Source: Kribbibacterium absianum (GTDB taxonomy: Bacteria > Actinomycetota > Coriobacteriia > Coriobacteriales > Atopobiaceae). Taken from it: a DNA stretch of 64,000 nt. How positions within the stretch are numbered: position 1 is the first letter of the stretch; each line of letters opens with the position of its first letter. Position numbers and translations under genes: made by a program. The DNA is taken from positions 372,001 through 436,000 of the forward strand of contig NZ_JASJEX010000003.1 of the NCBI RefSeq assembly GCF_030067705.1, in the 5' to 3' direction. Shown piece by piece: positions 11,474-46,145 of the stretch. The notes beneath the pieces were generated by a model. That model had not been told where the DNA came from. It searched no databases and saw nothing but the letters and a program-made list of their open reading frames with translations.

Positions 11474-11502
11474 GTGCATTTGGGGACTGTCCCTAAATGC
11501 AC
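11474..11502. repeat. GTGCATTT-arm palindromic repeat
   Basis: A 29-nt palindromic unit, arms GTGCATTT / AAATGCAC, core GGGGACTGTCCC, lies 5 nt beyond the stop codon of the LacI-type gene, between it and the HPr-like gene. Confidence 0.92.
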
Positions 11503-20996: not shown

Positions 20997-21225
20997 GCCG
21001 CTTCATCTTTGATGTTGATAACTCCCGGGCTCTGTAGATTCAAGATTGCATCTAACAAAACCTGTCAGTCCGCAGGTAGGATAGGCAATCTCTGACCTGT
21101 TTCAGCAGCTTGTATGCATCGGTATCGATGGGTATATCGCGGGACTGTAGGGTGGGCAACCGGGGCCCTTTTCTTTGAGTCCCTCATTTCCTAGGGTCAT
21201 GCCTCTCCAAGGAGAGGAGGGCACC
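20997..21225. other. AT-richer leader before the transposase gene
   Basis: This stretch is clearly poorer in G+C than its surroundings and holds no convincing gene. It contains a short GGGC...GCCC hairpin followed by TTTTCTTT (about 21153-21176) and the purine-rich AAGGAGAGGAGG that serves the transposase start. The base composition suggests imported DNA travelling with the transposase. Confidence 0.5.
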
Positions 21226-21999
21226 ATGCCACGAGGGCCGCGACCGCGGAGCGAGGCTGGCCTGTATCACGTGAGCACGCGCGGGACGGGCCGCCACAGC
21301 ATCTTCGAGGACGACGAGGACAGGGCCTGCCTCAAGCGGCTTCTCGCGCGGGGCTGTGACACCCACGATGTCTCGGTGCTGGTGTGGTGCTTCATGGAGA
21401 ACCACGTCCACGCGCTGCTCGAGTCGCCCGCAGAGCCGCCGTCGGACTTTATGCGGGACGTCTTTTCGCACTATGCGGGGGAGTACAACCGTCGCCACGA
21501 CCATGTGGGGCATGACTTTCAGGGGCGGTTCCATGGCAGCCCGGTTGACGACGAGCGGCACCTTCAAGCCGTCGTCCCCTATATCCATCTCAATCCGGCA
21601 CACGGTGACTTTGATCGTGCGCGGAGCTTTGCCTGGAGCAGCTACCAAGAGGTTCTAAACGGAGGAGGTCTGGCCGATGTCGAGTGGGTTCTGGGCTTGT
21701 ACGGATCGGTGGAGGCGTTCGAGGACGCTCACCGGGTCGCCTTTGCTCGGCAGGAGGCCATCGTGCTCGCGCACGCGGGGAGGCATTTGACCGATGAGGA
21801 GGCGCGCGTCGTGTACGATCAGGTCCTCCTCGGCATGGGTATTGATGGGGAGCTCGGGGCAGTTGAGAAAGGGCTCCGCAATCGTGCGATCGGAGCCCTT
21901 CGGGCGGTTTGCTTGTCGGTTCGCCAGATCGAGCGTTTCTCTGGGCTGGGCCGTGGAATCATTCAGCGGGTGCCAGCAGAACCATCAATACTTGTATGA
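21226..21999 (+). CDS. REP-associated tyrosine transposase (RAYT, Y1/HUH family)
   Basis: A 257-residue single-strand DNA transposase-like protein of the Y1 family. The HUH motif is His60-Val-His62 in FMENHVHALLE. The catalytic Tyr is Tyr83 or Tyr87 in SHYAGEYNRRH, and the typical GHDFQGRFH and YIHLNPA segments follow. A C-terminal helix-turn-helix-like tail (LSVRQIERFSGLGRG) is present, as in RAYTs that carry a DnaA-like C-terminus. RAYTs are thought to cut and spread REP palindromes as single strands. Here the gene is flanked by GTGACAAA-family units on both sides (20938-20996, 22001-22029). The start at 21226 is preceded by AAGGAGAGGAGG. No IS-type terminal repeats of its own are seen. Confidence 0.93.
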   Translation: MPRGPRPRSEAGLYHVSTRGTGRHSIFEDDEDRACLKRLLARGCDTHDVSVLVWCFMENHVHALLESPAEPPSDFMRDVFSHYAGEYNRRHDHVGHDFQGRFHGSPVDDERHLQAVVPYIHLNPAHGDFDRARSFAWSSYQEVLNGGGLADVEWVLGLYGSVEAFEDAHRVAFARQEAIVLAHAGRHLTDEEARVVYDQVLLGMGIDGELGAVEKGLRNRAIGALRAVCLSVRQIERFSGLGRGIIQRVPAEPSILV

Positions 22000-31939: not shown

Positions 31940-32000
31940 CGACCCACCGTCAACCAACAGGGCGCCCCGCGCAGGCGCTGCTCCTGATGTGACGAGAACG

Positions 32001-32046: not shown

Positions 32047-32048
32047 TC

Positions 32049-32570: not shown

Positions 32571-32717
32571 GGTTCTCCTTCCGGAGCCAGGTCGCCCGTG
32601 ATTGTTCCCCGGCCGTCCTCCCGCGAGCCCGACGGTCGCTGGACCCTTCGGCGTACGCTACGAGCGACCCCGCTCGTGCTTGCTACGCTGCGGGCGGCCG
32701 ACGCGTGAGGAGGCCCC

Positions 32718-33299
32718 GTGGGCAACCCGGACATCGATGCACGGAAGAAGGAGCTGCGCCGCCGGCTCAAGGTGCTCCGGCATGACCTGGGCGCCGAGAA
32801 GCGCGCCGTCGCTGACGGCGCCATAGCCAACAAGGTCGCGGCGCTGGATGTCTGGCGCGACGCGCCGGTGGTGCTCGTGTACCTGTCCGTGGGCGACGAG
32901 GTGGACACGCGCGTGCTGATCGCGCGGGCCTGGGAGCGGGGCAAGCGCGTTGCGGTTCCGCGCGTGACGGGGCCGCGGCAGATGGAGTGGCGCGTCATCG
33001 AGGACTTCGAGGCCTTGGAGCGCACGAGGATGGGCGTGGTGCAGCCACTGCCGGACGCATGCCCACGGATTGATGGGGCGTGCGTGGACGAGAAGGCCGT
33101 CGCGCTGGTGCCCGGCCTTGCGTTCGACCGCGCTGGATACCGCATTGGCTATGGCGGCGGGTTCTTTGACGCGTTCCTCGGCCGGTTCGTTGGCACATCG
33201 GTTGGGCTCTGCCGCAGCGTGGCGCTGGTGGACGACCTGGGCGAGCTGGGTGTGCTGGACGTGTGCGACGTCGCAGCGGACCTGGTGATCAGTGGCTAA
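32718..33299 (+). CDS. 5-formyltetrahydrofolate cyclo-ligase
   Basis: A 193-residue 5-FCL family protein converting 5-formyl-THF to 5,10-methenyl-THF with ATP. The conserved C-terminal motif VPGLAFDRAGYRIGYGGGFFD (residues about 131-151) carries the phosphate-binding glycines, and the N-terminal basic helix KKELRRRLKVLR is typical. GTG start. The stop codon is followed directly by a long palindromic repeat. Confidence 0.92.
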   Translation: MGNPDIDARKKELRRRLKVLRHDLGAEKRAVADGAIANKVAALDVWRDAPVVLVYLSVGDEVDTRVLIARAWERGKRVAVPRVTGPRQMEWRVIEDFEALERTRMGVVQPLPDACPRIDGACVDEKAVALVPGLAFDRAGYRIGYGGGFFDAFLGRFVGTSVGLCRSVALVDDLGELGVLDVCDVAADLVISG

Positions 33300-33300
33300 C

Positions 33301-33337
33301 GCGTGTGCATTTGGGGATAGTCCCCAAATGCACACGC
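33301..33337. repeat. GTGCATTT-arm palindromic repeat, extended
   Basis: A perfect 37-nt palindrome: arms of 17 nt (GCGTGTGCATTTGGGGA and its complement) with a 3-nt loop. The inner part is the GTGCATTT family; the outer GCGT/ACGC is specific to this copy. Confidence 0.93.
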
Positions 33338-33354
33338 GAGCCCCATGCTGTCCC

Positions 33355-33466
33355 TGTGGCTGTCTTCTCGGAACCGTGGCTCTGGCTGGCGCTGGGCCCG
33401 GCGTCGCTCGTGGTGCCCATCGACAAGCTGTCCATCGTGGGCGGCACGCTGCTGATGCTCGTGTGA
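33355..33466 (+). pseudogene. Possible remnant of an EamA/DMT transporter
   Basis: An open stretch encodes WLWLALGPASLVVPIDKLSI followed by a short hydrophobic end and a stop. The LGPASLVVPIDKLS segment resembles the conserved part of small EamA-type permeases. There is no matching upstream portion: the 5' side is cut by the palindromic repeat at 33301. Probably a 3' gene fragment. Confidence 0.45.
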
Positions 33467-33550
33467 CGCGGCTCGGTAAAGAAACGCGAGACGGATACGG
33501 CCCAAAGCCAGGGGGATAGACCTTTCACTGTCGATGGAGAGGAGTCGACC

Positions 33551-34372
33551 ATGGCTTCCGTTCGCGTGATTCAGACCGGCGGCGTGCTGGTCTCGCCGGC
33601 CGTGCCGGATCGCGGTAGCCGCAGCAACCCGCTGGCCTACACGGGGCTCTTCCAGAGCCGGAAGAACCGCATCGAGGTGCCGGTCAAGTGCTTCCTGGTG
33701 AGCAACGCCGGGCACCTGACGCTGGTGGATGCAGGCTGGTCCGCGAGGGATGCCCACGATGCCGTGAAGCACATGGGTTTCCCGTTGTGGTTCTCGTCTG
33801 AGCCGGTGCTGGCCGAGAAGGACGCGGCGGATCGTCAGCTGGAGGCGCTGGGTATCAAGCCGCAAGACCTTGACGCCATCGTGATGACGCACCTGGATTG
33901 CGACCATGCGGCAGGGCTTGACGCGTTCACCGAGGTCATACGCGTGCTTGTGGCGCCGCAGGAGCTGGAGGCGGCGGCCGCGCCGCTCGACCCGCGCTAC
34001 AACCCCGGTCTCTGGGACGGCATTCAGTTCGAGACTGTTCAGTGGGTCTTTGACGACAAGGCGCCGTTTCGGCAGTCGGCCGACCTGTACGGCGATGGGT
34101 CGCTCGTCGCGTACTGTGTGCCCGGCCACTCCAAGGGCTCGCTGGTTCTTATCGCGACCGATGCCGCGACGGGCGACTTCGTCGTCTTCACTGGCGACAC
34201 CGGCTACGAGCAGAAGAGCTGGGACGAGCTGATGCTGCCCGGCGTGCAGACGGACGCCAGGGCGCTGCGCGAGGGGCTCGCGTGGATCCAGAGCCTGCGC
34301 ACCGACCCCCACTGTGTCGGGACGTTCGCCGCCCATGACCCGGCGGTCAAGCCGGGCGTCTACGAGTTCTAG
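33551..34372 (+). CDS. Metallo-beta-lactamase-fold hydrolase, lactonase-like
   Basis: A 273-residue MBL-fold enzyme resembling N-acyl-homoserine-lactone or related lactonases. Metal motif THLDCDHAAGL (about residues 114-124), a further His in VPGHSKGS and metal-bridging Asp in TGDTGYE are visible. Cytoplasmic. GAGAGGAG precedes the ATG. The following TSUP permease gene overlaps or abuts its 3' end, suggesting co-expression. The natural substrate is unknown. Confidence 0.85.
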   Translation: MASVRVIQTGGVLVSPAVPDRGSRSNPLAYTGLFQSRKNRIEVPVKCFLVSNAGHLTLVDAGWSARDAHDAVKHMGFPLWFSSEPVLAEKDAADRQLEALGIKPQDLDAIVMTHLDCDHAAGLDAFTEVIRVLVAPQELEAAAAPLDPRYNPGLWDGIQFETVQWVFDDKAPFRQSADLYGDGSLVAYCVPGHSKGSLVLIATDAATGDFVVFTGDTGYEQKSWDELMLPGVQTDARALREGLAWIQSLRTDPHCVGTFAAHDPAVKPGVYEF

Positions 34373-35147
34373 CCGTGGACGTCTCGCTGACTTTCTTGTC
34401 TCGGTGCTGGCCGGCCTCGGCGCGGGGATCGGCGTGGGGTGCGGCGGCATGAGCTCGGCCGTCGTTGTGACGCCCGTGCTCGTGACGTTCCTGCACCTGG
34501 ACGCGTTCCGGGCCATTGGCGTGGCGTTGTGCGCGGACGTGCTCGCGAGTCTGGCCTCGGCCGTCGTCTACGGCAAGAACGGCAACCTGCACCCCAGGAA
34601 GGCGCTGCTGCTGATGGCGTCCGTCATCGTGTTCACGATCGTCGGCACGCTCATCAGCCGCGTGGTGACCGACCGGTCCATGGGTGGCCTGTCCGTGGTC
34701 ATCACGTTGCTCACAGGCCTCAAGCTGCTCGTGCGGCCGGTCACGGACGGGCGGCCGCGGCCGGGTCTCACCGAGAAGCGCCGGGTTGTCGAGTCTATCA
34801 TGTGCGGCGCGGGCGTGGGGCTGGTCTGCGGGTTTGTCGGCGCCGGCGGCGGCATGATGATGCTCTTGGTGCTTGTGACGTTCCTCGGCTACGCGATGAA
34901 AGAGGCCGTTGGCACGAGCGTCTTCATCATGACGTTCACGACGGCCGTAGGAGCGATTGCGCACTTCACAGAGTTCGGCGTGCCGAGCTTGTGGGTGCTG
35001 ATTCCCTGCGTTCTCGCGACGCTGGTGAGCGCGCACGGGACGTCGACGCTGGCCAATCGCGCCAAGCCGAAGACCCTGAGCCGCGCAACGGGTGCTCTCG
35101 CGGTGACGCTGGCGATGGCGGTTTTCATCTTCGATGCGGTGAAGTGA
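34335..35147 (+). CDS. TSUP (TauE/SafE) family permease
   Basis: An eight-segment membrane protein of the sulfite/sulfonate exporter TSUP family: two internally similar halves, each beginning with a Gly-rich motif (AGIGVGCGGMSSAVVVTPVL and CGFVGAGGGMMMLLVLVTFL). The start is uncertain. ATG 34335 lies inside the upstream gene and would give 270 residues; GTG 34404 would start at the first membrane helix. Either way expression is probably coupled to the lactonase-like gene. The transported anion is unknown. Confidence 0.82.
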   Translation: MTRRSSRASTSSSRGRLADFLVSVLAGLGAGIGVGCGGMSSAVVVTPVLVTFLHLDAFRAIGVALCADVLASLASAVVYGKNGNLHPRKALLLMASVIVFTIVGTLISRVVTDRSMGGLSVVITLLTGLKLLVRPVTDGRPRPGLTEKRRVVESIMCGAGVGLVCGFVGAGGGMMMLLVLVTFLGYAMKEAVGTSVFIMTFTTAVGAIAHFTEFGVPSLWVLIPCVLATLVSAHGTSTLANRAKPKTLSRATGALAVTLAMAVFIFDAVK

Positions 35148-35165
35148 CACCGTAGGCACCTGTTT

Positions 35166-35374
35166 CACCACCCAAGCCCGTCCGTGAGGAGCGCTTTCGG
35201 GTCCATCTGGGACAGGTTGGGGGGTAACTCTCGCTGCCACCACCACCCAGCCCTCTTCGAGAGGTCTGCAGAGAAGCATCCGCGGTGGGGTTGGGGGGCG
35301 GTGGCACTCGATCCTGCCACCCAAACCGGCTCGGAGAGCCTCCGAATCGCGTGCCCGGAGAAGGTTTGGGTGGT
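35166..35374. repeat. Array of three large imperfect hairpins (locus A)
   Basis: The gap between the TSUP gene and the ArsR gene is filled by three tandem stem-loops, each with CCACCC-rich left and GGTGG/GGGGT-rich right arms: 35166-35225 (CCCAAGCCC / GGTTGGGGGG), 35238-35303 (CCACCACCCAGCCC / GGGGTTGGGGGGCGGTGG) and 35316-35374 (CCACCCAAACC / GGTTTGGGTGG). A similar three-hairpin array is at 49577-49780. No coding potential is seen. Confidence 0.75.
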
Positions 35375-35383
35375 ATGGCGCGG

Positions 35384-35779
35384 TCAATATGTGGCTGATG
35401 GCTCCACGCACACCCGCACGGCCTGCTCGGCGTCCGCCGAGAGACGCGCCATGAGCCGCCACACCTGGAGGTCCGGCTCCACGTGGTAGTAGTTGCGCGT
35501 GCCCACGCGGTAGACGCCCACCAGGCGCGCGTCCTTCAGGATTCGCAGGTGGTGGGACGCAGCCGGCCGAGACAGCCCCACCGCCTCAGCTAGCTCGCCC
35601 ACGCGCAGGCCGCCGTAGTTTCGCAACAGCTCCAGCAGCATAAGCTGGCGCGTCTCGTCGCCCAGTGCCACGAACAGCGGCCTCGCGGTCGCGAAGTCGT
35701 CGGCCAGCGACTCCATGTCTTGAGCCAGCTGTCTCTCGGCAGGGGAGCGGGGACGGATCGGCTCTTCCTCAACACGCAT
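35384..35779 (-). CDS. ArsR-family transcriptional regulator
   Basis: A 131-residue winged helix-turn-helix repressor. The DNA-binding core is VALGDETRQLMLLELL... to LSRPAASHHLRILKDARLV, with the wing at VYRVGTRNYYHV. No clear metal-binding Cys box (ELCVCDL) is present, so it may sense something other than metals. ATG 35779 with TTGGAG upstream is preferred over a start 19 codons earlier. Its target may be its own promoter, where an inverted repeat is found. Confidence 0.88.
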   Translation of the reverse strand: MRVEEEPIRPRSPAERQLAQDMESLADDFATARPLFVALGDETRQLMLLELLRNYGGLRVGELAEAVGLSRPAASHHLRILKDARLVGVYRVGTRNYYHVEPDLQVWRLMARLSADAEQAVRVCVEPSATY

Positions 35780-35791
35780 CGCCAACTCCAA

Positions 35792-35811
35792 TGGTTCGTT
35801 CTTTTGAACCA
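35792..35811. promoter_or_regulatory. Putative ArsR operator
   Basis: The inverted repeat TGGTTC-N8-GAACCA lies 12 nt upstream of the ArsR start codon, where it would overlap the promoter or ribosome binding region. It resembles the TTCAA-type dyads bound by ArsR proteins. Confidence 0.5.
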
Positions 35812-35825
35812 ATGGTACCCGTGCG

Positions 35826-36101
35826 CTACATCCCAAACATCTTGTCGGCGGTCACGTTCACGTACCGGCCGTCCGCTTCCATCTTTGAACGCGTCGCGTC
35901 GGTCACGGGGCGCTTGGTGAACAGGTAGAGGCCAACGACCTCGTGCCCCTTAATGAGGCGGCTCCGGCGCTCCAGGTCTCGCAGGGCCTGCGTCTCGTCA
36001 AACTCGTTGCGCCACTTGCACTTGCCGATAATGGCTTGGCTCGTGAACGAGTCGCCCACCACGACATCGATGTCGCACAGCTCGCGTGCCTGCGGGTCGG
36101 C
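35826..36101 (-). pseudogene. 3' fragment of a DUF234-type ATPase gene
   Basis: The frame encodes a C-terminal fragment including CDIDVVVGDSFTSQAIIGKC, KWRNEFDE and GLYLFTKRPVTDA, the restriction-endonuclease-like C-terminal domain of ATPases of the DUF234 (archaeal-ATPase-like) family. The N-terminal ATPase part is missing: the upstream side ends at the palindromic repeat at 36102 and continues into an unrelated duplicated fragment. A truncated, non-functional gene is the simplest reading. Confidence 0.65.
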
Positions 36102-36130
36102 GTGCAAACGGGGACAGTCCCTAAATGCAC
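36102..36130. repeat. GTGCAAAC-arm palindromic repeat
   Basis: A 29-nt unit with imperfect left arm GTGCAAAC, core GGGGACAGTCCC and right arm AAATGCAC. The same odd left arm is found in the unit at 37134-37162, next to the intact XRE gene from which the neighbouring fragment derives. Confidence 0.88.
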
Positions 36131-36142
36131 ATCGGCGGCCGG

Positions 36143-36400
36143 GTCCTGCAGGCTCACGTGCCGCTCCACCATCATGCGGTCCAGGCGCAGCACGATGCGG
36201 CCGTTCTGCTCGGTCATGGTCACACCAGCCCTTCCACATCGTCCTGCAGCCGGTGCCCGTAGGCGAACATGGTCGAGAGCCAAAGCACCACGAGGCCCAG
36301 GAGCAGGCCCATCTGGCTCCAGGAGGTCTCGACGGCGCCCCCAGAGACGCCGAAGACCACCCACGTCGCCACGAGCCCCCACAGGGAGATGCTCACGCAG
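36143..36400 (-). pseudogene. 258-bp duplicate of the XRE/DUF2975 junction
   Basis: This segment matches 37311-37568 at 256 of 258 positions. It contains the first 25 codons of the XRE regulator (start at 36217) and the last 60 or so codons of the DUF2975 membrane protein (stop at 36220). It is bounded on both sides by palindromic repeats (36102-36130 and 36400-36428). The right repeat supplies an in-frame ATG (ending 36405) giving a 61-codon ORF, which is unlikely to be functional. Confidence 0.92.
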
Positions 36401-36428
36401 TGCATTTGGAGACGACCCCTAAATGCAC
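36400..36428. repeat. Degenerate GTGCATTT-arm palindromic repeat
   Basis: Arms GTGCATTT / AAATGCAC are intact but the core is altered to GGAGACGACCCC. It marks the end of the duplicated XRE/DUF2975 fragment. Confidence 0.85.
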
Positions 36429-36524
36429 AAAGGAGCGGTGGGACGTGAAACGCGAGGCCGTCTCATCGTCCTGCAGAAGGCGCCCCTATACTGAACGTGT
36501 GGGACTCGCGAGAAGGGCCTTCCA

Positions 36525-36797
36525 ATGATGCATCCGTTCATGACCTATGCTGACGGGTCCGAGCTGATTCGATCGGACCTCAAAGAGGGCGGCCGCGTTC
36601 TGGTTCGCATCGAGTCTCCTAATGCCGATGACTTCTTCCACTCGGTCGATGCATGGCTCCCTGACTACCTCTTTGAGAACGTCAACGGCTTTTCCGACCA
36701 AGACCTTGATGAGTGGAACGCGGAGCTTCACAGATTGGCGCCGGCAATCCTTGGGCTCGCGATGGAAGAGGCGGGCCTTTATGCCGAAGCTGTTTGA
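36525..36797 (+). CDS. Small hypothetical protein, partner of DUF4160 gene
   Basis: A 90-residue acidic protein (starts possible at 36525, 36528 or 36540). I do not recognise the family. It overlaps the next gene by 17 nt, which implies translational coupling. DUF4160 genes often travel in small two-gene modules, commonly with DUF2442, thought to be toxin-antitoxin-like. This protein does not show a clear DUF2442 pattern. It lies in a debris-rich patch between palindromic repeats. Confidence 0.6.
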   Translation: MMHPFMTYADGSELIRSDLKEGGRVLVRIESPNADDFFHSVDAWLPDYLFENVNGFSDQDLDEWNAELHRLAPAILGLAMEEAGLYAEAV

Positions 36798-37068
36798 GAT
36801 TCTCGGCTGGACGGTCTTCTTCTGGTCCAACGAGGGCGACCCTATCGAGCCGGTTCATGTTCATGTGGGCAAGAGGCCGTCGCCGGATGCCACAAAGGTC
36901 TGGGTCACCTCGGAGGGCGCGGCGCTTCTTTGCTCCAATGGCTCTCGTGTCCCCAGTAAGGACCTGCGCGTCATTCTGCAGGTGCTGGGTGCGAAATCGG
37001 ACGAGATCGTCGAGCGCTGGTGCTCGTATTTCGACGTGGCTCCGGGAGAGGAACGCTACTACTGCTGA
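36781..37068 (+). CDS. DUF4160 domain protein
   Basis: A 95-residue protein beginning MPKLFEILGWTVFFWSNEGD and containing EPVHVHVGK, the hallmark of DUF4160 (xFxxNE...PPHxHV). It starts inside the 3' end of the upstream small gene. Function is unknown; the family is usually found next to small DNA-binding or DUF2442 proteins and is suspected to be part of toxin-antitoxin-like modules. The start at 36781 is set by the family N-terminus; a longer frame from 36622 is a shadow of the upstream gene. Confidence 0.8.
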   Translation: MPKLFEILGWTVFFWSNEGDPIEPVHVHVGKRPSPDATKVWVTSEGAALLCSNGSRVPSKDLRVILQVLGAKSDEIVERWCSYFDVAPGEERYYC

Positions 37069-37100
37069 GGGCGTTGGTCTGAGTCAGCCGCACGATGTAT

Positions 37101-37162
37101 GTGCATTTGGGGACTGTCCCTAAATGCACGCGCGTGCAAACGGGGACTGTCCCTAAATGCAC
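37101..37162. repeat. Two GTGCA-arm palindromic repeats in tandem
   Basis: Unit 37101-37129 has arms GTGCATTT / AAATGCAC. Unit 37134-37162 has the left arm GTGCAAAC. Both have core GGGGACTGTCCC and lie in the same orientation, 4 nt apart. The second ends one base before the XRE stop codon region. Confidence 0.92.
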
Positions 37163-37163
37163 A

Positions 37164-37385
37164 TCAATCGTCGATGTACTCGAGCAGGTCGCCCGGCTGG
37201 CAGTCCAGCGCCTCGCAGATGGCCGCCAGCGTCGAGAGCCTCAGGGCCGACACGCGGTTGTTCTTGATCTTCGACAGGTTGGCCTGCGTGATCCCCACCT
37301 GGGCCGCCAGGTCCTGCAGGCTCACGTGCCGCTCCACCATCATGCGGTCCAGGCGCAGCACGATGCGGCCGTTCTGCTCGGTCAT
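37164..37385 (-). CDS. XRE-family regulator (YozG-like)
   Basis: A 73-residue single-domain Cro/C1-type helix-turn-helix protein (VSLQDLAAQVGITQANLSKIKNNRV as the core). It begins 2 nt after the stop of the DUF2975 membrane protein. XRE + DUF2975 is a well-known pair in Gram-positive bacteria, the small regulator probably controlling the pair from the shared promoter at about 38000. Its 5' portion is duplicated at 36143. Confidence 0.9.
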   Translation of the reverse strand: MTEQNGRIVLRLDRMMVERHVSLQDLAAQVGITQANLSKIKNNRVSALRLSTLAAICEALDCQPGDLLEYIDD

Positions 37386-37387
37386 GG

Positions 37388-37942
37388 TCACACCAGCCCT
37401 TCCACATCGTCCTGCAGCCGGTGCCCGTAGGCGAACATGGTCGAGAGCCAAAGCACCACGAGGCCCAGGAGCAGGCCCATCTGGCTCCAGGAGGTCTCGA
37501 CGGCGCCCCCAGAGACGCCGAAGATCACCCACGTGGCCACGAGCCCCCACAGGGAGATGCTCACGCAGAACAGGCCGATCTCGCGCACCATGCGCACGTT
37601 GTCCGGCGTGAACGGCGTGTTGGTCTCGCTGAACTCGGGCTGTGCGGCCAGCGAGCGCGAGATGAGCGTGATGTTGCGGGCCACCATGGCGGAGAGGCCG
37701 AGCGCCACGACGCCGTAGCCCAAGATCGTGCGGAAAGCGGCAAGGCTGCGGTCGACGTGCTCGACCGAGACGCCCATCATCTCGATGGAGCCGCCCTCGA
37801 TTCCACCCACAAAGAGGCTGTCGGCGACCTCGGGCACCACGAACGTCCAGATCAGCGCGCACGCGACCAGGGCGGTCCCCACCCAGAGGAGGATTTGGAC
37901 GACCATGGCGATGATTGAGACGGGCTTGGAGTAGTTCTTCAT
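37388..37942 (-). CDS. DUF2975 membrane protein
   Basis: A 184-residue protein with four predicted membrane helices (about 8-30, 75-95, 130-150, 155-175). It matches the DUF2975 layout and is co-transcribed with the XRE regulator downstream. The start MKNYSK at 37942 is preceded by GAAAGG. Role unknown; such pairs are proposed to sense membrane state or signals. Its 3' third is duplicated at 36220-36400. Confidence 0.85.
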   Translation of the reverse strand: MKNYSKPVSIIAMVVQILLWVGTALVACALIWTFVVPEVADSLFVGGIEGGSIEMMGVSVEHVDRSLAAFRTILGYGVVALGLSAMVARNITLISRSLAAQPEFSETNTPFTPDNVRMVREIGLFCVSISLWGLVATWVIFGVSGGAVETSWSQMGLLLGLVVLWLSTMFAYGHRLQDDVEGLV

Positions 37943-38024
37943 GGCGATGCCTTTCTCGGGCAGGGGAGGGTTCTGCGGCGCCACCACCGTTATACGGGAC
38001 AGAGATATCGTCTGTCAACTAGAA

Positions 38025-38043
38025 CTTATCGCAAAACGATAAG
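38025..38043. promoter_or_regulatory. Inverted repeat upstream of DUF2975-XRE
   Basis: CTTATCG-CAAAA-CGATAAG, a perfect 7-bp dyad, lies about 85 nt upstream of the DUF2975 start, in an AT-richer promoter stretch. A likely operator for the XRE regulator. Confidence 0.55.
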
Positions 38044-38131
38044 AACGCATCGCAGCACGAGAATCGAAGAACTCCTAGCAAGCCGCCGGCCCGCATCATG
38101 GTTGCCGTTGTTGCCCATTCACGGCCTCTCA

Positions 38132-38153
38132 ATAGTTGACGTTTGGCAACTAT
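38132..38153. promoter_or_regulatory. Inverted repeat upstream of oleate hydratase gene
   Basis: ATAGTTG-N8-CAACTAT, a perfect 7-bp dyad with an 8-bp spacer, lies 74 nt upstream of the ohyA start. The spacing suits a TetR-type repressor. No regulator gene of that type is adjacent. Confidence 0.6.
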
Positions 38154-38226
38154 GGGTCGTGGGCACACTGTCCTCTGAGAGCAACGGCCGGCAATGTGCC
38201 GGCGCGATCGGCAAAGGAGGGCGTCC

Positions 38227-40065
38227 ATGTATTACGGAGCAGGCACCTATGAGGCGTACGCCAGGCCTGCGGGGCATGCGGCCACAGAGGGTCGGCAGGC
38301 CTATCTGGTGGGCACGGGGCTCGCATCGCTTGCGACGGCTGTGTTCCTCATCCGCGACGCGGAGTTCGACCCCCAGAGCGTGCACTTCCTTGAGCGCGAC
38401 CCGCGCGCCGGCGGTGCCTTGGACGGCTGGGACTATCCCTTTGGCTTCACGATGCGCGGCGGCCGCGAGATGGACAACCACTTCGAGTGCATGTGGGACC
38501 TGTTCCGCTCCATCCCGTCCATCGAGGACCCCGACCTCTCGGTGCTCGATTACTACTACCGGCTCAACAAGCGCGACCCCAACTACTCGATGTGCCGTGC
38601 GACCGTCGGCCGCGGCCAGGACGCGCACACCGACGGCAAGTTCAACCTCTCCGACAAGGGCGCGATGGAGGTGCTGCAGCTCTTCTTGGCCCGCGACGAG
38701 GAACTCTTCGACAAGCGCATCGACGAGGTCTTCGACGACGAGGTCTTCACCAGCGACTTCTGGCTCTACTGGCGCACGATGTTCGCGTTCGAGAACTGGC
38801 ACTCGGCGCTCGAGATGAAGCGCTACATCCAGCGCTTCGTGCATCACATCGGCGGCCTGCCGGACTTCTCGGCGCTGCGGTTCACTCGCTACAACCAGTA
38901 CGAGTCGATGGTGCTCCCGCTGCAGAACTGGCTCACCGAGCAGGGCGCGCAGTTCCATTTCGACACCCAGGTGGACAACGTGCTCTTCAACGTGCGGCAC
39001 CTGGAGCCGGGCGCGTCCACGGACGAGCAGCCCGAGAAGGTGGCCGAGTCCATCGAGGTGTCGCACGCGGACGGCACTCATGAGTCCATCAAGCTGTCGC
39101 CGGACGACCTCGTCTTCATCACGAACGGCTCCTGCGTGGCCTGCTCCACGTTCGGGCGACAGGACCAGCCGGCGCCCTGGGACCCCACCATCAAGGAGGG
39201 GGACTGCTGGAGCCTGTGGCGCAACATCGCGGCCCAGGCGCCGGACGGCTCGTTTGGACGCCCCGATGTCTTCTGCGGCGACCCGGCCCAGTCCAACTGG
39301 ATGAGCGCAACGGTCACGACGAGCGACCCGGACATCCTCGCGGCCATCGAGCACATCTGCCGGCGCGACCCGCTCTCTGGGGGCGTGGTGACGGGCGGCA
39401 TCGTGACCGCCAAGGACTCGAAGTGGCTGCTGTCCTGGACGGTGAACCGCCAGCCGCAGTTCCGTGACCAGCCTGCGGGGTCGTGCTGCGTGTGGGTCTA
39501 CAGCCTCTTCTGCGACACGCCGGGCGACTATGTGAAAAAGCCCATGCGCGACTGCACCGGCCGCGAGATCTGCGAGGAGTGGCTCTGGCACCTCGGCGTG
39601 CCGGAGGGCCAGATTGGCGAGCTGGCTGACAAATGCGACACGGTCCCCTGCATGATGCCGTACATCACGTCGTTCTTCATGCCGCGCAACAACACGGACC
39701 GTCCCAAGGTGGTGCCGGACCACGCCCGGAACTTCGCGTTCATCGGGCAGTTCGCCGAGACGCCCCGCGACACCATCTTCACAACGGAGTACTCGATCCG
39801 CACCGGCATGGAGGCGGTGTACACGCTGCTGGACGTGGACCGCGCGGTGCCGGAGGTGTGGGGCTCGGTGTACGACGTGCGTGACCTGCTCAACGCGACG
39901 TATCGCCTGCGGGACGACCAGCCGGTGACCACGATGCCGATGCCGGCGGTCGCCCGTCTCGTGCTGAAGGGCCTCATCGACAAGGCGGACAAGACCGACG
40001 TTGGCCTCTTGCTCCAGGCCTACGGCGTGGTGCCGGGCGGCGAGCTTCACCCCCAGATCATGTAG
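38227..40065 (+). CDS. ohyA: Oleate hydratase (MCRA family)
   Basis: A 612-residue FAD-dependent hydratase that adds water across the cis-9 double bond of unsaturated fatty acids (oleate to 10-hydroxystearate). The N-terminal dinucleotide-binding motif reads AYLVGTGLASLATAVFLIRD. The flavin/substrate loop RGGREMDNHFECMWDLF and the domain segment LTEQGAQFHFDTQVDNVLF are characteristic. AAAGGAGG precedes ATG 38227. It stands alone. In gut bacteria it detoxifies unsaturated fatty acids. An upstream dyad suggests regulation. Confidence 0.95.
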   Translation: MYYGAGTYEAYARPAGHAATEGRQAYLVGTGLASLATAVFLIRDAEFDPQSVHFLERDPRAGGALDGWDYPFGFTMRGGREMDNHFECMWDLFRSIPSIEDPDLSVLDYYYRLNKRDPNYSMCRATVGRGQDAHTDGKFNLSDKGAMEVLQLFLARDEELFDKRIDEVFDDEVFTSDFWLYWRTMFAFENWHSALEMKRYIQRFVHHIGGLPDFSALRFTRYNQYESMVLPLQNWLTEQGAQFHFDTQVDNVLFNVRHLEPGASTDEQPEKVAESIEVSHADGTHESIKLSPDDLVFITNGSCVACSTFGRQDQPAPWDPTIKEGDCWSLWRNIAAQAPDGSFGRPDVFCGDPAQSNWMSATVTTSDPDILAAIEHICRRDPLSGGVVTGGIVTAKDSKWLLSWTVNRQPQFRDQPAGSCCVWVYSLFCDTPGDYVKKPMRDCTGREICEEWLWHLGVPEGQIGELADKCDTVPCMMPYITSFFMPRNNTDRPKVVPDHARNFAFIGQFAETPRDTIFTTEYSIRTGMEAVYTLLDVDRAVPEVWGSVYDVRDLLNATYRLRDDQPVTTMPMPAVARLVLKGLIDKADKTDVGLLLQAYGVVPGGELHPQIM

Positions 40066-40118
40066 CCGCGCGCCGATGTGCATTTGGGGACAGTCCCCAA
40101 ATGCACATCGGCGCGCGG
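40066..40118. repeat. Perfect 53-nt palindrome containing a GTGCATTT unit
   Basis: Two perfectly complementary 25-nt arms with loop CAG follow the ohyA stop by one base. The central 29 nt (40078-40106) are the GTGCATTT-family unit with core GGGGACAGTCCCC; the outer CCGCGCGCCGAT / ATCGGCGCGCGG is unique to this locus. The structure would make a very stable hairpin. Confidence 0.95.
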
Positions 40119-40160
40119 TTGGGCACAATCCCTCCCATTGCCACAAGAAGGGATGCCCGC

Positions 40161-41198
40161 ATGAAGCTCTCCGTCCTCAACCTGGTGCCGCTCCGCGCGG
40201 AGTGCTGGTTCGGCGACGCGCTCTCCTCGATGGTGCGGCTCGCCCAGGGTGTCGAGGCGCTGGGCTACGGGCGCTACTGGGTCGCCGAGCACCACAACAC
40301 CAGGAAGTTCGCCAGCTCGGCGACGGCGCTGCTCGTCCAGGACGTGCTCTCCAAGACCAGCACCATCCGGGTGGGCGCCGGCGGCATCATGCTGCCCGAC
40401 CATGCGCCGTGCCTGGTGGCCGAGGACTTCGGCACGCTTGCGGCGCTGTATCCGGGTCGCGTTGACCTGGGCGTCGGACGCGCGCCGGGCACCGATCCGC
40501 GGACCGCCCACGCCATCCGGGGCGGTCGCGACGCGTGCGACAAGTTCCCGCAGGACGTTCAAGAGCTCCTCGGCTATTTCGCTGGCACCGAGCCGGTGCA
40601 CGCGTACCCGGCCGAGAACCGCGACGTGCCGGTGTGCGTCCTCGGCGCCTCGACCCTCTCGGCACATCTCGCCGCGACGTTGGGCCTGCCGTTCGCCTTC
40701 GCCGCGCACATCGCGCCGCAGCAGATGGTCTCGGCGTCCGTGGTCTACCACGCGGAGTTCCGGCCGAGCGGGCGGCTGTCCGCTCCCTACCTGATCCTCA
40801 GCATGAACGGCATCGTGGCCGAGACGGACGCCGAGGCCGAGCGCCTCTCCACCACGCAGGTCATGAGCTGCATCGATGCCATGCGCGGCGAGCAGTGGCC
40901 GCTGCAACCGCCGATGGGGACCCCGGAGACCGTGTTAGAGCGTGCGGTGCCACCCGAAGGAGCGCCCTCCCACGGTTCTTCGGCATCGGTCAATCGCGAT
41001 GCGCTCCTCAACCAGTACCGCCAGGCGCTGAAACCCTTGATGGCCGAGTCGCTCATCGGCAGCCCCGACACCGTGCGCGAGCAGTGCCGGGCGTTGCGCC
41101 GGCGCGTGGAGTTCGACGAGCTGATGGTGAGCACGCTGGTCTACGACGAGGCGGCCCAGCTGGAGAGCTATCGCCTCCTGATGGAAACCCTCGGCTGA
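40161..41198 (+). CDS. LLM-class flavin-dependent oxidoreductase
   Basis: A 345-residue luciferase-like monooxygenase-fold protein of the subgroup often annotated as MsnO8-type. N-terminal strand SVLNLVPLR, GYGRYWVAEHHN and RVGAGGIMLPDHAPCLVAEDFGTL, and VDLGVGRAPGTD are conserved. It uses reduced FMN with an unknown substrate. AGAAGGGA precedes ATG 40161. The next gene encodes a flavodoxin-ferredoxin fusion that could supply electrons. Confidence 0.88.
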   Translation: MKLSVLNLVPLRAECWFGDALSSMVRLAQGVEALGYGRYWVAEHHNTRKFASSATALLVQDVLSKTSTIRVGAGGIMLPDHAPCLVAEDFGTLAALYPGRVDLGVGRAPGTDPRTAHAIRGGRDACDKFPQDVQELLGYFAGTEPVHAYPAENRDVPVCVLGASTLSAHLAATLGLPFAFAAHIAPQQMVSASVVYHAEFRPSGRLSAPYLILSMNGIVAETDAEAERLSTTQVMSCIDAMRGEQWPLQPPMGTPETVLERAVPPEGAPSHGSSASVNRDALLNQYRQALKPLMAESLIGSPDTVREQCRALRRRVEFDELMVSTLVYDEAAQLESYRLLMETLG

Positions 41199-41202
41199 CG
41201 GC

Positions 41203-41231
41203 GTGACAAAGGGGTCAGAGCATTTTGTCAC
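41203..41231. repeat. GTGACAAA-arm palindromic repeat
   Basis: A 29-nt unit, core GGGGTCAGAGCA, lies between the LLM oxidoreductase gene and the flavodoxin-ferredoxin gene; it ends 8 nt before the latter's ribosome binding site. Confidence 0.95.
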
Positions 41232-41246
41232 GTCATTGGAGGTCTG

Positions 41247-42026
41247 ATGATTCTGTTCTTCACCGCCACCGGCAACGACCAGTACGTGGCCGAAGCCATC
41301 GCCGAGCGCTGCGGCGAGAACGAGCAGGCGCTGTCCATCACGGAGCTCCTCTGGAGCGAGCGCCGCGAACTGTCGCTGCAGCCCTTCGAGCGCTTCGGCC
41401 TCGTGACGCCCACCTACTTCTGGGGGCTGCCGGCACCCGTGGTCACGTTTCTCGAGGGCCTTGCGCTCGACATCTCTCAGGACCCCGACCCGTACACCTT
41501 CGTCGTTGCCACCTACGGCACGACCACCGGCGGCCTCGGCGCCCAGACCAACGCCCTGTTCCAACGTCTCGGTGCGCCGCTCAAGGCGCGCTTCTCGGTC
41601 AAGATGCCGGACACGTGGACGCCCATCTTTAATCTGTCTGACAAGACCGCCGTGGCCGAGAAGGTGCGCCGCGGCGACGAGCAGGCGCACAAGGTCGCGC
41701 ATGCCATTGCCGCGCACGTCACTGGTAACCACATGGGCCTCTCCGTGCCCTGGGCCATCGCCCAACATGCCTACGCCCGGTACGCCCCAGCTCGCCAGTG
41801 CTATCACCTCGCGGTCAACGACGCTTGCATCGGCTGCGGCCTCTGCGCCCGGCAGTGTCCGGTGCGGGCCATCCAAATGCGGGACAACCGGCCGGCCTGG
41901 GTCAAGGATCGATGCGCGATGTGCCTCGGCTGTTTGCACCGCTGCCCGGTCAACGCGATTACCTACAACCATGCGACCCAGGGCCGCGGCCAGTATGTGC
42001 ATCCAGGCGTGAAGCTGCCAAAGTGA
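41247..42026 (+). CDS. EFR1-type flavodoxin-ferredoxin fusion
   Basis: A 259-residue electron carrier. An N-terminal flavodoxin-like domain (about 1-150) has the FMN-phosphate loop FFTATGNDQYVAEAI, and a C-terminal ferredoxin domain carries two 4Fe-4S clusters: CIGCGLCARQCP and CAMCLGCLHRCP. Matches EFR1-family ferrodoxins common in anaerobes. TTGGAGG precedes the start. Likely soluble and involved in low-potential electron transfer. Confidence 0.9.
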   Translation: MILFFTATGNDQYVAEAIAERCGENEQALSITELLWSERRELSLQPFERFGLVTPTYFWGLPAPVVTFLEGLALDISQDPDPYTFVVATYGTTTGGLGAQTNALFQRLGAPLKARFSVKMPDTWTPIFNLSDKTAVAEKVRRGDEQAHKVAHAIAAHVTGNHMGLSVPWAIAQHAYARYAPARQCYHLAVNDACIGCGLCARQCPVRAIQMRDNRPAWVKDRCAMCLGCLHRCPVNAITYNHATQGRGQYVHPGVKLPK

Positions 42027-42028
42027 CG

Positions 42029-42310
42029 TCAGGCGTCCACGGCTTCCAGCACGTCCATACGCGCCGTCATGTCTTCGTCCAGCCGGTCGCCCCAATGGGC
42101 GACCCCCGTGTCCCCGCAGCGAGCTTGCAGCTCATGCAACGCCCGCCGCGCCTGCCTCGGCAGTTCGCGGGCCATCTTGGCAACCGTCTTTCGCGGCAGC
42201 CCGACGGCGTCCGCCACGAGCAGAATGTCTCTGGGCGTCTCGCCGTCGATGGAGCCGAGAAGGACCAGCCCGTAGGGTGTGACGCGATGGACCTTCAGTG
42301 CCTTGCTCAC
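42029..42310 (-). CDS. Small protein paired with XRE regulator
   Basis: A 93-residue protein, GTG start at 42310 behind AAGGAG, overlapping the XRE gene by 4 nt. The segment DILLVADAVGLPRKTVAKMARELPRQARRAL recalls the helical C-terminus of HipA-type toxins, but the HipA kinase motifs are absent. It may be a reduced HipA remnant or an unrelated partner. The tight overlap with a HipB-like regulator suggests a toxin-antitoxin-like module. Confidence 0.6.
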   Translation of the reverse strand: MSKALKVHRVTPYGLVLLGSIDGETPRDILLVADAVGLPRKTVAKMARELPRQARRALHELQARCGDTGVAHWGDRLDEDMTARMDVLEAVDA

Positions 42311-42519
42311 GACCGCTCCTTTGCTGTGAGGTCGATTCCGAGCATGGCGGCCACATGCAGTGCTTTGCCCAGCTCTGCGGTGGCCTTGCCGCGCTCGAGC
42401 TCGCTGAGATAGGTCACGCTCACCCCGCAGAGCTCGCACAGCTCCGCCTGTGTCATGCCCTGGCGTTTCCGAGCCCGACGGATGGCAGCTCCAAAGTCCT
42501 CAGGCGTGCGGATGGGCAT
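42307..42519 (-). CDS. XRE-family regulator, HipB-like
   Basis: A 70-residue Cro/C1-type DNA-binding protein (AIRRARKRQGMTQAELCELC... with VSVTYLSELERGK). ATG 42519 is chosen as the start of the conserved domain; 14 extra residues could be read upstream. The overlapping downstream gene makes it the likely antitoxin or autoregulator of a two-gene unit. Confidence 0.85.
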   Translation of the reverse strand: MPIRTPEDFGAAIRRARKRQGMTQAELCELCGVSVTYLSELERGKATAELGKALHVAAMLGIDLTAKERS

Positions 42520-42636
42520 GGAACCTCCCGAATTCGTGCGCCCGCACCAGCGAGCCGCCACCCGTCGGGCACCGGCTCATTGACCTCTCTCGCAGTTTCA
42601 GGGACCATTGGGTGCAGTCAACGCCCGGAGGTGCCC

Positions 42637-43758
42637 ATGAACCCTGACAAGAAGCTCGCCTTTGGCCTCATGCGCCTGCCGCAGACCGACCCGAGCGACC
42701 CCACGTCCATCGACGACGCCCAGGTCTGCGCGATGGTGGACCGCTTCCTCGGCGCCGGCTTCACGTACTTCGACACCGCCGCGCCCTATCACGGCGGCGC
42801 GAGCGAGGAGGCGTTCCGGCGGTGCGTGGTGGAGCGCCACCCGCGCGACGCCTACACCGTCACCGACAAGCTGAGCCTCTGGATGGTCGAGAGGCCCGAG
42901 GACCTGCGGCCATTCTTCGACGCGCAACTGGAGCGGCTGGGCGTCGACTACGTGGACTACTACCTGCTCCACGCCATGGACGCGGCGCGGCTCGAGAGGG
43001 CCGAGGAGTTGGGCGCGTTCGATGTGCTCGCCCAGCTCAAGGCGGACGGGCTCGTGCGCCACGTGGGCTTCTCGTTCCACGACACGGCGGACGTGCTCGA
43101 ACGCATCCTCGAGCGGCATCCCGAGATGGAGTACGTGCAACTGCAGCTCAACTACGCGGACTGGGAGGACGCGGAGGTGCAGTCCCGCGCCTGTCACGAG
43201 GTCTGCGAGAGGCACAGCAAGCCGGTGCTCGTGATGGAGCCCGTCAAGGGCGGGCAGCTCGCGAACCTGCCGCCGGACCTGGAGGAGCGTCTGCGCGCGA
43301 TGGGCCCCGAGCGGTCCGTCGCCAGCTGGGCGATCCGTTTCGCAGCGTCGCAGCCGCAGGTGGCGATGGTGCTCTCGGGCATGAGCGACGAGGCCCAGGC
43401 GGCCGACAACCTGGCCACGATGCGGGACTTCCAGCCTCTCACCGCCGAGGAGCAGGTGGAGTTGCTCGACATCGCCGAGGAGATCCGCTCCCGCGCGTCC
43501 ATCCCGTGCACGGCCTGTCGCTATTGCGTGGACGGGTGCCCCCAGAAGATTCGCATCCCGGACTACTTCAAGCTCGTGAACCGGGTCGCGATGTTCGGCG
43601 AGGGGAGCCTGCCCAAGGCCCGCCGCGATTACGCGGCCCAGGCGCAGTCCGCGGGCAAGGCCAGCGACTGCGTCCACTGTCTCCAGTGCGAGGAGCACTG
43701 CCCGCAGCACTTGCCGATCACGGAGCTGCTGGAACAGGTGGCGGAGGTGTTGGAATGA
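42637..43758 (+). CDS. Aldo/keto reductase with C-terminal 4Fe-4S domain
   Basis: A 373-residue protein. The aldo/keto reductase barrel (about 1-285) has FGLMRLP, catalytic FDTAAPYHGG and the conserved LLHAMD. A ferredoxin-like tail (about 288-373) carries CTACRYCVDGCPQKI and CVHCLQCEEHCPQHL, typical of the iron-sulfur AKR subgroup of anaerobes. CCGGAGG precedes the start. ATGA overlap couples it to the DUF1893 gene. The physiological substrate is unknown. Confidence 0.9.
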   Translation: MNPDKKLAFGLMRLPQTDPSDPTSIDDAQVCAMVDRFLGAGFTYFDTAAPYHGGASEEAFRRCVVERHPRDAYTVTDKLSLWMVERPEDLRPFFDAQLERLGVDYVDYYLLHAMDAARLERAEELGAFDVLAQLKADGLVRHVGFSFHDTADVLERILERHPEMEYVQLQLNYADWEDAEVQSRACHEVCERHSKPVLVMEPVKGGQLANLPPDLEERLRAMGPERSVASWAIRFAASQPQVAMVLSGMSDEAQAADNLATMRDFQPLTAEEQVELLDIAEEIRSRASIPCTACRYCVDGCPQKIRIPDYFKLVNRVAMFGEGSLPKARRDYAAQAQSAGKASDCVHCLQCEEHCPQHLPITELLEQVAEVLE

Positions 43759-44186
43759 CGGACCTCGAACGCGCGGTCGCCCTGCTCCATGAGGGCGACC
43801 ATTCCGTGGTGCTCGTGCGCGGCGACGATGTGTTGGTGAGCGATGACCGCGGCGTTGCACCGCTCGTGAGGTGGGTCGATTCTGGCGACGACCTCTCGGG
43901 CTTCTCTGCGGCGGACCGCGTGGTGGGGCGTGCGGCCGCGCTGTTGTACGTGCTGCTCGGCGTGGAGGCCGTGTGTGGTGACGTGATGGCCCGTGGGGCG
44001 GTGGACGTGCTCAGCGCCCACGGCATCACGGCGAGCCATGGCACCCTGGCCGAGCAGATCGTCAACCGCGCGGGCACCGGTCCGTGCCCGATGGAGGCGG
44101 CGACGGCTGGCATCGATGAACCGAGCGAGGCGCTTCGGGCCATCAAGGCCAAGCAGGCCGAGCTGAGGGCACACGCGCGAGCGTGA
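43755..44186 (+). CDS. DUF1893 domain protein
   Basis: A 143-residue protein of the DUF1893 (TM1506-like, deaminase-fold-related) family: LVRGDDVLVSDDRGVAPLV, ADRVVGRAAALLYVLLGVEAVCGDVMA and a CP near the end (GPCPME). Members usually keep a zinc-type C/H arrangement but have no proven reaction. The start overlaps the aldo/keto reductase stop (ATGA), so the two are translationally coupled. Confidence 0.82.
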   Translation: MTDLERAVALLHEGDHSVVLVRGDDVLVSDDRGVAPLVRWVDSGDDLSGFSAADRVVGRAAALLYVLLGVEAVCGDVMARGAVDVLSAHGITASHGTLAEQIVNRAGTGPCPMEAATAGIDEPSEALRAIKAKQAELRAHARA

Positions 44187-44422
44187 CGGCGCACGCGGGG
44201 CTTGATCAGGTTGCAAGAGTGATGTTTCCGGTCTCGATCTCCGTTCGCCTGCCGGAGACTGCGCTCGGCGCCGGCGGCGTCCTTCTCGTAGCATGCGAAC
44301 GGACGGCGCCCACAGGGAGGCGGCGCGGTCCTGGGCGCCTCGGGGACTTTGTGTGAACGCGCCCCTCCCATACCATCGACAGTGGAGAATCCTAGCGAGC
44401 AGCTGGAGCAGAGGAGAAGAAC

Positions 44423-46096
44423 ATGGCCGAGTACAAGTCGGATATTCAGATCGCGCAAGAGGCCGAGATCAGGCCCATCAAAGAGGTGGCGGAGACGCTC
44501 GGCCTCGACGACGAGCAGCTGATCCCCTACGGCCACTACATGGCCAAAGTGGACGTCACGAAGATCCAGGACCTGCCCGAGAAGGCCAAGCTCATCCTCG
44601 TGACCGCCATCAACCCCACGCCGGCGGGCGAGGGCAAGACCACCACCTCGGTGGGCCTCGCCGACGGCCTCAACCGCATCGGCAAGAAGACGGTGCTCGC
44701 CCTTCGCGAGCCGTCCCTCGGTCCCGTGTTCGGCGTCAAGGGCGGCGCGGCCGGCGGCGGCTACGCGCAGGTCATCCCGATGGAGAACATCAACCTGCAC
44801 TTCACCGGAGACTTCCACGCGATCGGCGCCGCCAACAACCTCCTCGCCGCCATGCTCGACAACCACATCAAGCAGGGCAACGAGCTCAACATCGACCCGC
44901 GGCGCATCACCTGGAAGCGCGTCGTCGACATGAACGACCGCCAGCTCCGCTCCGTCGTCGACGGCCTCGGCGGCGTGGCCAACGGCATGCCGCGCCAGGA
45001 CGGCTTCGACATCACCGTGGCCTCCGAGATCATGGCCGTCTTCTGCCTCGCCACCTCCATCGAGGACCTCAAGCAGCGCCTCGGCCGGATCGTCGTCGGC
45101 TACACCTACGACCGCGAGCCCGTGACCGCCCACGACCTCAAGGCCGAAGGCGCGATGACCGCCCTGCTCAAGGACGCCATCAGCCCCAACCTGGTCCAGA
45201 CCCTCGAGCACAACCCCGCCTTTGTGCACGGCGGGCCGTTCGCGAACATCGCCCACGGCTGCAACTCCGTGAGCGCCACCAAGGCCGCCCTGAAGCTCGG
45301 TGACTATGTGGTGACGGAGGCCGGCTTCGGCGCCGACCTCGGTGCGGAGAAGTTCTGCGACATCAAGTGCCGCCTTGCCGGTCTTGAGCCGGACGCCTGC
45401 GTGATCGTCGCCACGGTCCGCGCCCTCAAGCACCATGGCGGCGTGGCCAAGGCGGACCTCAACGAGGAGAACCTCGCGGCGCTCGAGGCCGGCCTGCCCA
45501 ACCTGCTCCAGCACGTGGACAACATGAAGAACGTCTACGGGCTGCCTGTCGTGGTCGCCATCAACGCGTTCCCCACCGACACCAAGGCGGAGCTCGACCT
45601 TGTCGAGCAGAAGTGCAAGGAGCTTGGTGTCAACGTGGCCCTCTCCGAAGTCTGGGCCCGGGGCGGCGAGGGCGGCGAGGCGCTGGCTCGCGAGGTGGTG
45701 CGCCTCTGCGAGGAGCCGCACGAGTTCCACTTCTCCTACGAGACCGACGGCACGCTCGAGGAAGAGATCGAGGCCATCGCCAAGCGCATCTACCACGCCG
45801 ATGGCGTCGACTTCACCCCGGCCGCCAAGCGCGACATCAAACAGCTCACCGAGCAGGGCTTCGACCACATGCCGGTCTGCATGGCCAAGACGCAGTACTC
45901 CTTCTCGGACGACCAGAGCCTGCTGGGCGCCCCGAGGGACTTCCGCGTCACCGTGCGCAACGTCAAGGTGTCCGCCGGCGCCGGTTTCGTGGTGGCGCTC
46001 ACCGGCGACATCATGACGATGCCCGGGCTGCCCAAGCGCCCGGCCGCCGAGAAGATCGACGTGGACGCCGAGGGTAAGATCTCCGGCCTGTTCTAA
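44423..46096 (+). CDS. fhs: Formate-tetrahydrofolate ligase
   Basis: A 557-residue formyl-THF synthetase, a normal family length, catalysing formate + THF + ATP to 10-formyl-THF. P-loop [20 protein letters not shown] (about 56-75), [18 protein letters not shown]-type segment (here [11 protein letters not shown]) and [16 protein letters not shown] are present. AGAGGAGAAG precedes ATG. It heads a folate one-carbon cluster with fchA, folD, folE and a formate channel. The 236-nt leader contains GC hairpins but no riboswitch I can identify. Confidence 0.97.
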
Positions 46097-46108: not shown

Positions 46109-46145
46109 CAACGTGAATTTAGGGACTGTCCCTAAATTCACGTTG
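46109..46145. repeat. GTGAATTTA-arm palindromic repeat
   Basis: A perfect palindrome with 17-nt arms (CAACGTGAATTTAGGGA and its complement) and loop CTG, between fhs and fchA. It has the same GGGACTGTCCC core as the GTGCATTT family but different arms. Confidence 0.93.

Follow-up and report, generated by a model that had tools for sequence, protein, structure and literature searches.

The locus and its palindrome

The window analysed here is a 64,000-nucleotide stretch (C3:372001-436000) of a 2.18-Mb genome in seven contigs, probably that of a coriobacterium, and positions given without a contig refer to it. It contains a putative ohyA gene followed by a gene that we take to resemble LLM-class flavin oxidoreductases (Table 1). 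A palindrome begins immediately 3' of the ohyA TAG and ends at 40118, leaving 42 nt to the next gene if the latter starts at 40161. Its two 26-nt arms are 100% complementary with a single A between them, and its letters are, in order, CCGCGCGCCGAT - GTGCATTTGGGGACAGTCCCCAAATGCAC - ATCGGCGCGCGG. At its centre lies a 29-nt repeat unit with the core GTGC..GCAC, outside which the pairing continues for another 12 pairs. The initial annotation had described this unit as sitting inside a longer perfect palindrome with 25-nt arms, and apart from that one nucleotide our analysis bears this out. We count only nine of the 12 outer pairs (CCGCGCGCC/GGCGCGCGG) as specific to the locus, because GAT and ATC are common at the ends of other units. 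The 11-mer CGCGCGCCGAT occurs nine times in the genome, two of these being the ohyA arms, and its reversed control occurs three times.

Folded as RNA, the palindrome is predicted to form 25 pairs closed by a 3-nt ACA loop, with an energy of -53.2 kcal/mol that was equalled in none of 200 shuffles. No T-run lies 3' of the palindrome, where TTGGGC comes next, and a search for intrinsic terminators, defined as a hairpin and then a T-run, found no such site in 39900-40400; the description of the structure as a "terminator" hairpin is thus doubtful. Rfam, at the gathering threshold, gave no match in 30000-45000.

Table 1 Features of the window discussed in the text. Extension is the number of pairs outside the repeat unit.
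Feature	Position	Strand
Copy of the studied family, extension 2 pairs	11474..11502	-
Y1_Tnp (IS200-like) transposase gene, stop-to-stop; the repeats beside it belong to the GTGACAAA..TGTCAC family	21151..21999	+
Copy of the studied family cited second by the initial annotation; unit 33305-33333, 5 pairs outside GTGC..GCAC	33300..33338	+
Copy of the studied family, extension 0 pairs, bordering a 273-nt partial duplication	36102..36130	+
Doublet of adjacent copies of the studied family, extension 0 pairs each	37101..37162	-
Upstream gene, 623 aa, putative ohyA (label of the initial annotation); stop TAG 40063-40065	38194..40065	+
Left outer arm CCGCGCGCCGAT, adjoining the ohyA stop; its final GAT is common at unit ends	40066..40077	+
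Repeat unit of the GTGCATTTRGGGACAGTCCCCAAATGCAC family (family c of the initial annotation), perfectly paired copy	40078..40106	+
Right outer arm ATCGGCGCGCGG; its initial ATC is common at unit ends	40107..40118	+
Downstream gene, 345 aa from the chosen start codon; mechanical ORF starts at 40101	40161..41198	+
Copy of the studied family, GTGAATTTA variant, extension 4 pairs	46113..46141	-

The repeat family and its transposases

The sequence GGGACAGTCCC occurs 68 times in the genome and its reversed control not at all. Together with two GGGATAGTCCC sites these make 70 core hits, five of which were left out for want of GTG or CAC at its place; the remaining 65, with GTG..CAC arms and cores of GGGACAGTCCC or GGGATAGTCCC only, are the copies scored below. 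A gene 3' end, called by an open-frame and GC3 rule, lies within 10 nt of 33 of the 65 copies and within 30 nt of 45. GAT stands at the left edge of 26 copies and ATC at the right edge of 25, and base counts over the 65 copies revealed no letters in common beyond these two motifs. The flanks therefore vary by locus and the outer arms do not belong to the repeat, as had been noted initially. The exact 29-nt pattern is confined to three of 396 genomes of the class, so that the expansion of the family is nearly private; the same three genomes, this one included, are those found among 140 of the taxonomic family. A looser 36-nt match is present in one further relative (G003).

TGAT lies immediately 5' of the unit, on either strand, in 27 of the 65 copies, compared to 0.002 per position as background farther out in the flanks. 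Excerpts from PMC8612924 state that members of IS200/IS605 insert 3' to a fixed target tetra- or pentanucleotide without target duplication, and that the insertion site of ISDra2 is 3' to TTGAT; by analogy, the repeat unit could share an ISDra2-like kind of target. In 13 of the 65 copies the adjoining open frame ends with a TGA one base ahead of GTG (TGATGTG in 12, TGACGTG in one; for example C5:25419, C3:135958 and C1:253695), and the edge of the unit thus supplies or overlaps the stop codon. The TAG inside GTAG repeats has likewise been remarked on as a stop codon in the excerpted text of PMC3733652. We also observed longer conserved tails (ATCAAACCTACAAC / GTTGTAGGTTTGAT) on some units (C1:335231, C2:425906 and C3:418122), which suggests an ancestral unit that reached beyond GTGC..GCAC.

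Five Y1_Tnp (IS200-like) loci are present in the genome. The one at C4:31906-32721(-), taken stop-to-stop, scores 28.1 bits against the Y1_Tnp profile and lies between units of the studied family, two on one side (31833 and 31873) and one on the other (32692), the last of which is upstream of the Met used as start. The predicted protein matches TnpA-REP 4er8 weakly (E=0.04) and contains an HLH motif and YVHQNPV, and this transposase is the probable cognate of the repeat. The window has a Y1 gene of its own, flanked by a different repeat family and thus probably not the cognate of the studied unit. This second family (GTGACAAAATGCTCTGACCCC..TGTCAC) occurs as singles and inverted doublets at 20937-20997, 21995-22031, 27774-27836 and 41197-41233. 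A third related family (CTGCAAAAGGGGACGGAGCA..TTTTGCAG) is present at 7497-7533, 10385-10421 and 53107-53168, so several REP/TIR-like families coexist with the five Y1 loci. The window also holds a 273-nt duplication with 98% identity (36128-36400 and 37296-37568), and the unit at 36102-36130 sits at its edge, as if the break had fallen at the repeat.

Flank symmetry of the copies

We compared the symmetry of the flanks with several estimates of chance. Arms of 9 bp arise in the window background at 3.6e-5 per position (ten gaps averaged, ohyA site excluded), equivalent to 0.0023 per 65 copies, and at a gap of 35, with the ohyA site and two repeat doublets included, at 9.4e-5, equivalent to 0.006 per 65 copies. 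Exchanging the right flanks at random between the 65 copies gave a longest extension of at least 12 pairs in 3% of permutations; this null includes two copies whose conserved tails match (C2:425906 and C1:335231). The flank symmetry of the ohyA copy exceeds chance.

The 65 copies as a set have a mean extension of 1.89 pairs compared to an expected 1.28 (p=0.0002), and six extend by at least five pairs where 1.8 were expected. At flank positions 13-21 there was no excess of pairing among the same 65 copies (p=0.17). The extensions of the four copies in two other genomes were 0, 0, 2 and 0 pairs, and nine units from a different repeat family of this genome extend by no more than 2. The copy at 33300, said by the initial annotation to be extended by four pairs beyond a longer unit, does have perfect 18-nt arms reaching five pairs past GTGC..GCAC, but its joined flanks are unremarkable against mismatched pairs (p=0.125) and its symmetry is not clearly above chance.

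Joined flanks and loop targeting

The initial annotation proposed that the unit inserts into the loops of existing hairpins, as a target preference. If so, hairpins across the junction should reappear once the unit is removed, in most cases with some leftover loop bases. We joined the flanks of the 57 copies that have no other unit within 25 nt, leaving out eight unit-adjacent copies, and examined the junctions in two ways, with constrained folding and with a search for perfect bridging stems. The mean energy of the bridging fold was -9.3 kcal/mol, compared to -9.2 kcal/mol for mismatched flank pairs (p=0.38; 0.60 without ohyA; 0.47 in a version with n=56 that left out C3:405314). The joined ohyA flanks reach -28.6, a value as low as which was seen in only 3 of 3192 mismatched pairs. 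With the unit edge at GAT/ATC, stems of at least six pairs leaving 1-12 loop bases were absent from the 57 copies, with 1.6 expected (mean, p=0.88). Because the bridging folds equal those of mismatched flanks and loop-leaving stems are not raised, loop targeting fails as a rule, and we rejected it in its general form.

The symmetry that remains abuts the unit and depends on few copies. A fair test of abutting stems places the edge at GAT/ATC, since common edge letters otherwise favour them, and with this edge four of the 57 copies had abutting bridging stems of at least four pairs compared to 0.5 expected (mean, p=0.003), and two had at least seven pairs compared to 0.05. The excess stood at p=0.038 without ohyA and was gone once C1:282341 and C1:199299 were also removed (p=0.36, n=54); these two copies have flank letters in common and may just retain longer ancestral arms. 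With the edge placed at GTGC..GCAC, four of four stems of at least seven pairs abut the unit, and one of six stems of at least six pairs does not. Scoring all copies for symmetry, as suggested initially, thus does reveal an abutting excess, with and without the common edge letters, but one carried by three copies.

Hairpins after ohyA in relatives and at gene ends in the window

This genome is the only one of its genus in the set compared. The comparison covered 87 ohyA loci, seven from relatives with 1.5-kb flanks and 80 of at least 586, whose flanks ran to as much as 5 kb if the contig was long enough. At a cutoff of E 1e-20, the downstream gene had no match beside ohyA in any of the 87. Long DNA matches to ohyA have 68-77% identity, and protein identity reaches 64% among the 80 loci and 69% in the locus L035, levels too low for a comparison of the intergenic sequence.

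The ends of these genes could be compared for structure. Among 84 usable orthologues, a sample with many distant Clostridia among its members, 69 have a hairpin of -12 kcal/mol or lower in the first 90 nt past the stop, and in 54 its 5' arm starts no more than 15 nt from the stop, both counted without a shuffle control. A perfect stem of at least eight pairs follows ohyA in 35 of the 84, compared to 1.2 in mononucleotide shuffles, and in just four of these 35 is the loop 2 nt or shorter. By eye, several of the relatives' hairpins also lack a T-run. Given how often the ohyA of relatives is closely followed by a hairpin, the unit may have landed in an older one at this locus, and to that extent the initial proposal stands.

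In the window itself, 11 of 52 gene models have a gene-end hairpin starting within 60 nt, or eight once three repeat units are subtracted. One of the eight, at 62208-62243, is loopless, a 36-nt perfect palindrome unlike the repeats that lies 20 nt past the stop of its gene model and is followed by TTTCG. By a rough estimate, native loops account for some 1.5% of the sequence in the 60-nt stretches that follow stops in the window; even with no preference, about one in 65 random gene-end landings would thus end up in a loop.

Origin of the palindrome

Two histories fit the ohyA palindrome, and of these we favour one in which the outer arms arose after the repeat had landed, to which we give a probability of about 0.4. 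A REP/TIR-like unit, probably moved by an IS200-like (HuH/Y1) transposase, would have landed just 3' of the ohyA stop beside a (T/C)GAT tetranucleotide. During replication the unit could then have folded back, and the nascent strand could have copied its own opposite arm beyond the end of the unit. Such quasipalindrome template switching would have converted the unique flank on one side into the mirror image of the other, yielding the outer nine pairs and, as the outcome, a single long hairpin where ohyA ends, which might have a role in transcript ending or stability. The symmetry adjoins the unit with zero leftover loop bases and abutting stems are raised among the copies, both as this history would have it, and the creation and extension of stems by template switching is described in the excerpted parts of PMC8794818. 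A further copy, C2:388756, points the same way: by eye its right arm, GTCTCGC, sits between tandem units, in their linker, and is similar to GTCTCTCGC of the C4:31842 doublet, and its left arm is the complementary GCGAGAC. Because the right arm belongs to the linker, the left one is hard to derive from an older host hairpin. Against arm copying, there is one strong case, the abutting excess depends on three copies, and within the TTT/AAA subfamily perfect inner arms and longer outer arms are not significantly associated (p=0.16; 0.27 without ohyA). We considered whether the correlation between inner arms and outer extension could prove template switching and discarded it; it is significant over all copies (rho -0.46), where it may reflect chimeric units, but not within the subfamily.

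The other history that fits, possible though less favoured, starts from an older ohyA hairpin with a stem of about 9-12 bp and little or no loop: the unit would have reached its tip by chance or because the DNA was exposed as a single strand, and the family would have no general target preference. Relatives do carry hairpins at the end of ohyA well above the shuffled expectation, occasional landings in gene-end hairpins are expected because so many copies (33 of the 65) lie within 10 nt of gene 3' ends, and REPs inside palindromes are reported in excerpts of PMC3733652. The gap between stem and unit is zero, yet loops that short are rare among the orthologue hairpins, although the loopless native palindrome at 62208-62243 makes a loopless older hairpin at ohyA conceivable. 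The lack of a T-run 3' of the palindrome also speaks against this landing, as do the orthologue stems inspected, which have no visible homology to the ohyA arms, and the absence, from the rest of the 57-copy set, of bridging stems that leave a loop and reach at least six pairs beyond GAT/ATC. Turning such a landing into an active preference of the family for hairpin loops or terminators, as initially read, is the least probable account and for this genome is largely refuted. The ohyA locus itself, the above-chance symmetry over all copies and the precedent of T. roseum GTAG-23 (excerpts of PMC3733652) would favour it, but joined flanks behave as mismatched ones, loop-leaving stems are not raised, and the four copies in two other genomes hardly extend at all.

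That the arms are chance complementarity of GC-rich flanks, or remnants of longer ancestral unit arms, is unlikely. The flanks are indeed GC-rich, with alternating CGCGCG, some units keep longer tails, and the genome-wide excess of symmetry hangs on few copies; on the other hand, 9-bp arms are expected just 0.002-0.006 times per 65 copies and by eye the ohyA flank is unlike the conserved tails. It is more improbable still that selection for a stronger hairpin at the 3' end of the ohyA mRNA lengthened the stem one base at a time once the unit was in place. The site immediately past the stop codon and the very low folding energy would suit this explanation, but nine consecutive pairs without a mismatch or a GU pair would have needed many separate changes.

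If arm copying is the true history, REP-like units would seed mutations from which hairpins grow at gene ends, a simple route to new mRNA 3' structures. We regard as tentative the broader idea that mobile units serve in this way, with template switching copying an arm outward to give a locus-specific and very strong gene-end hairpin. If instead a single landing in a hairpin occurred, the palindrome would be an unremarkable coincidence, given dozens of insertions at gene ends. In both cases, no target preference should be deduced from the palindrome of a single copy until the other copies have been scored.

Comparison with known systems

The studied repeat is a REP/TIR-like family. It shares with REPtrons (REP with RAYT/TnpA-REP) a short palindrome of the REP/RAYT kind (20-40 bp, imperfect, mainly extragenic) in many copies (65), mostly near gene 3' ends, an arrangement as singles and doublets, and, at C4, a Y1/HuH transposase gene with units on both sides. 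A hallmark of REPs in the excerpted text of PMC6006769 is a GTAG/GTGG tetranucleotide 0-2 nt from the foot of the hairpin; here, in contrast, GAT (TGAT/CGAT) is the commonest edge and none of the 65 copies has GTAG/GTGG directly adjoining the unit on either side. In TIRtrons, according to excerpts of PMC3733652, the terminal repeats of the TIRYT transposase gene carry a GGGGWSAS motif. The ohyA copy, with its core GGGGACAG, fits this motif, and the Y1 gene beside units of the family and the doublets are further likenesses, whereas copies with the common AGGGACAG variant do not match it exactly.

The template-switch hairpins in the excerpts from PMC8794818, where switching can create, correct and extend stems, come from ancestral reconstructions of RNA genes, whereas the case here comes from one extant genome. 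Among the titles and abstract starts retrieved for GGGACAGTCCC or its complement, none resembled work on bacterial repeats. REPs within palindromes are described in the excerpted sections of PMC3733652 for T. roseum GTAG-23, A. variabilis GTAG-15 and H. neapolitanus CGTC-1. There the position is a trait of the family members as such, whereas here one copy of 65 stands out, and members do not regularly lie within a palindrome, since hairpins spanning the junctions of the 57 copies matched the null. In all of them, as here, the unit lies inside a longer palindrome, and the T. roseum GTAG-23 target given in those excerpts, CCGSSCC(n3,4)GGSSCGG, is of similar make-up. A REP-like unit within a larger palindrome is thus an already published kind of structure, of which the ohyA palindrome is a further member.
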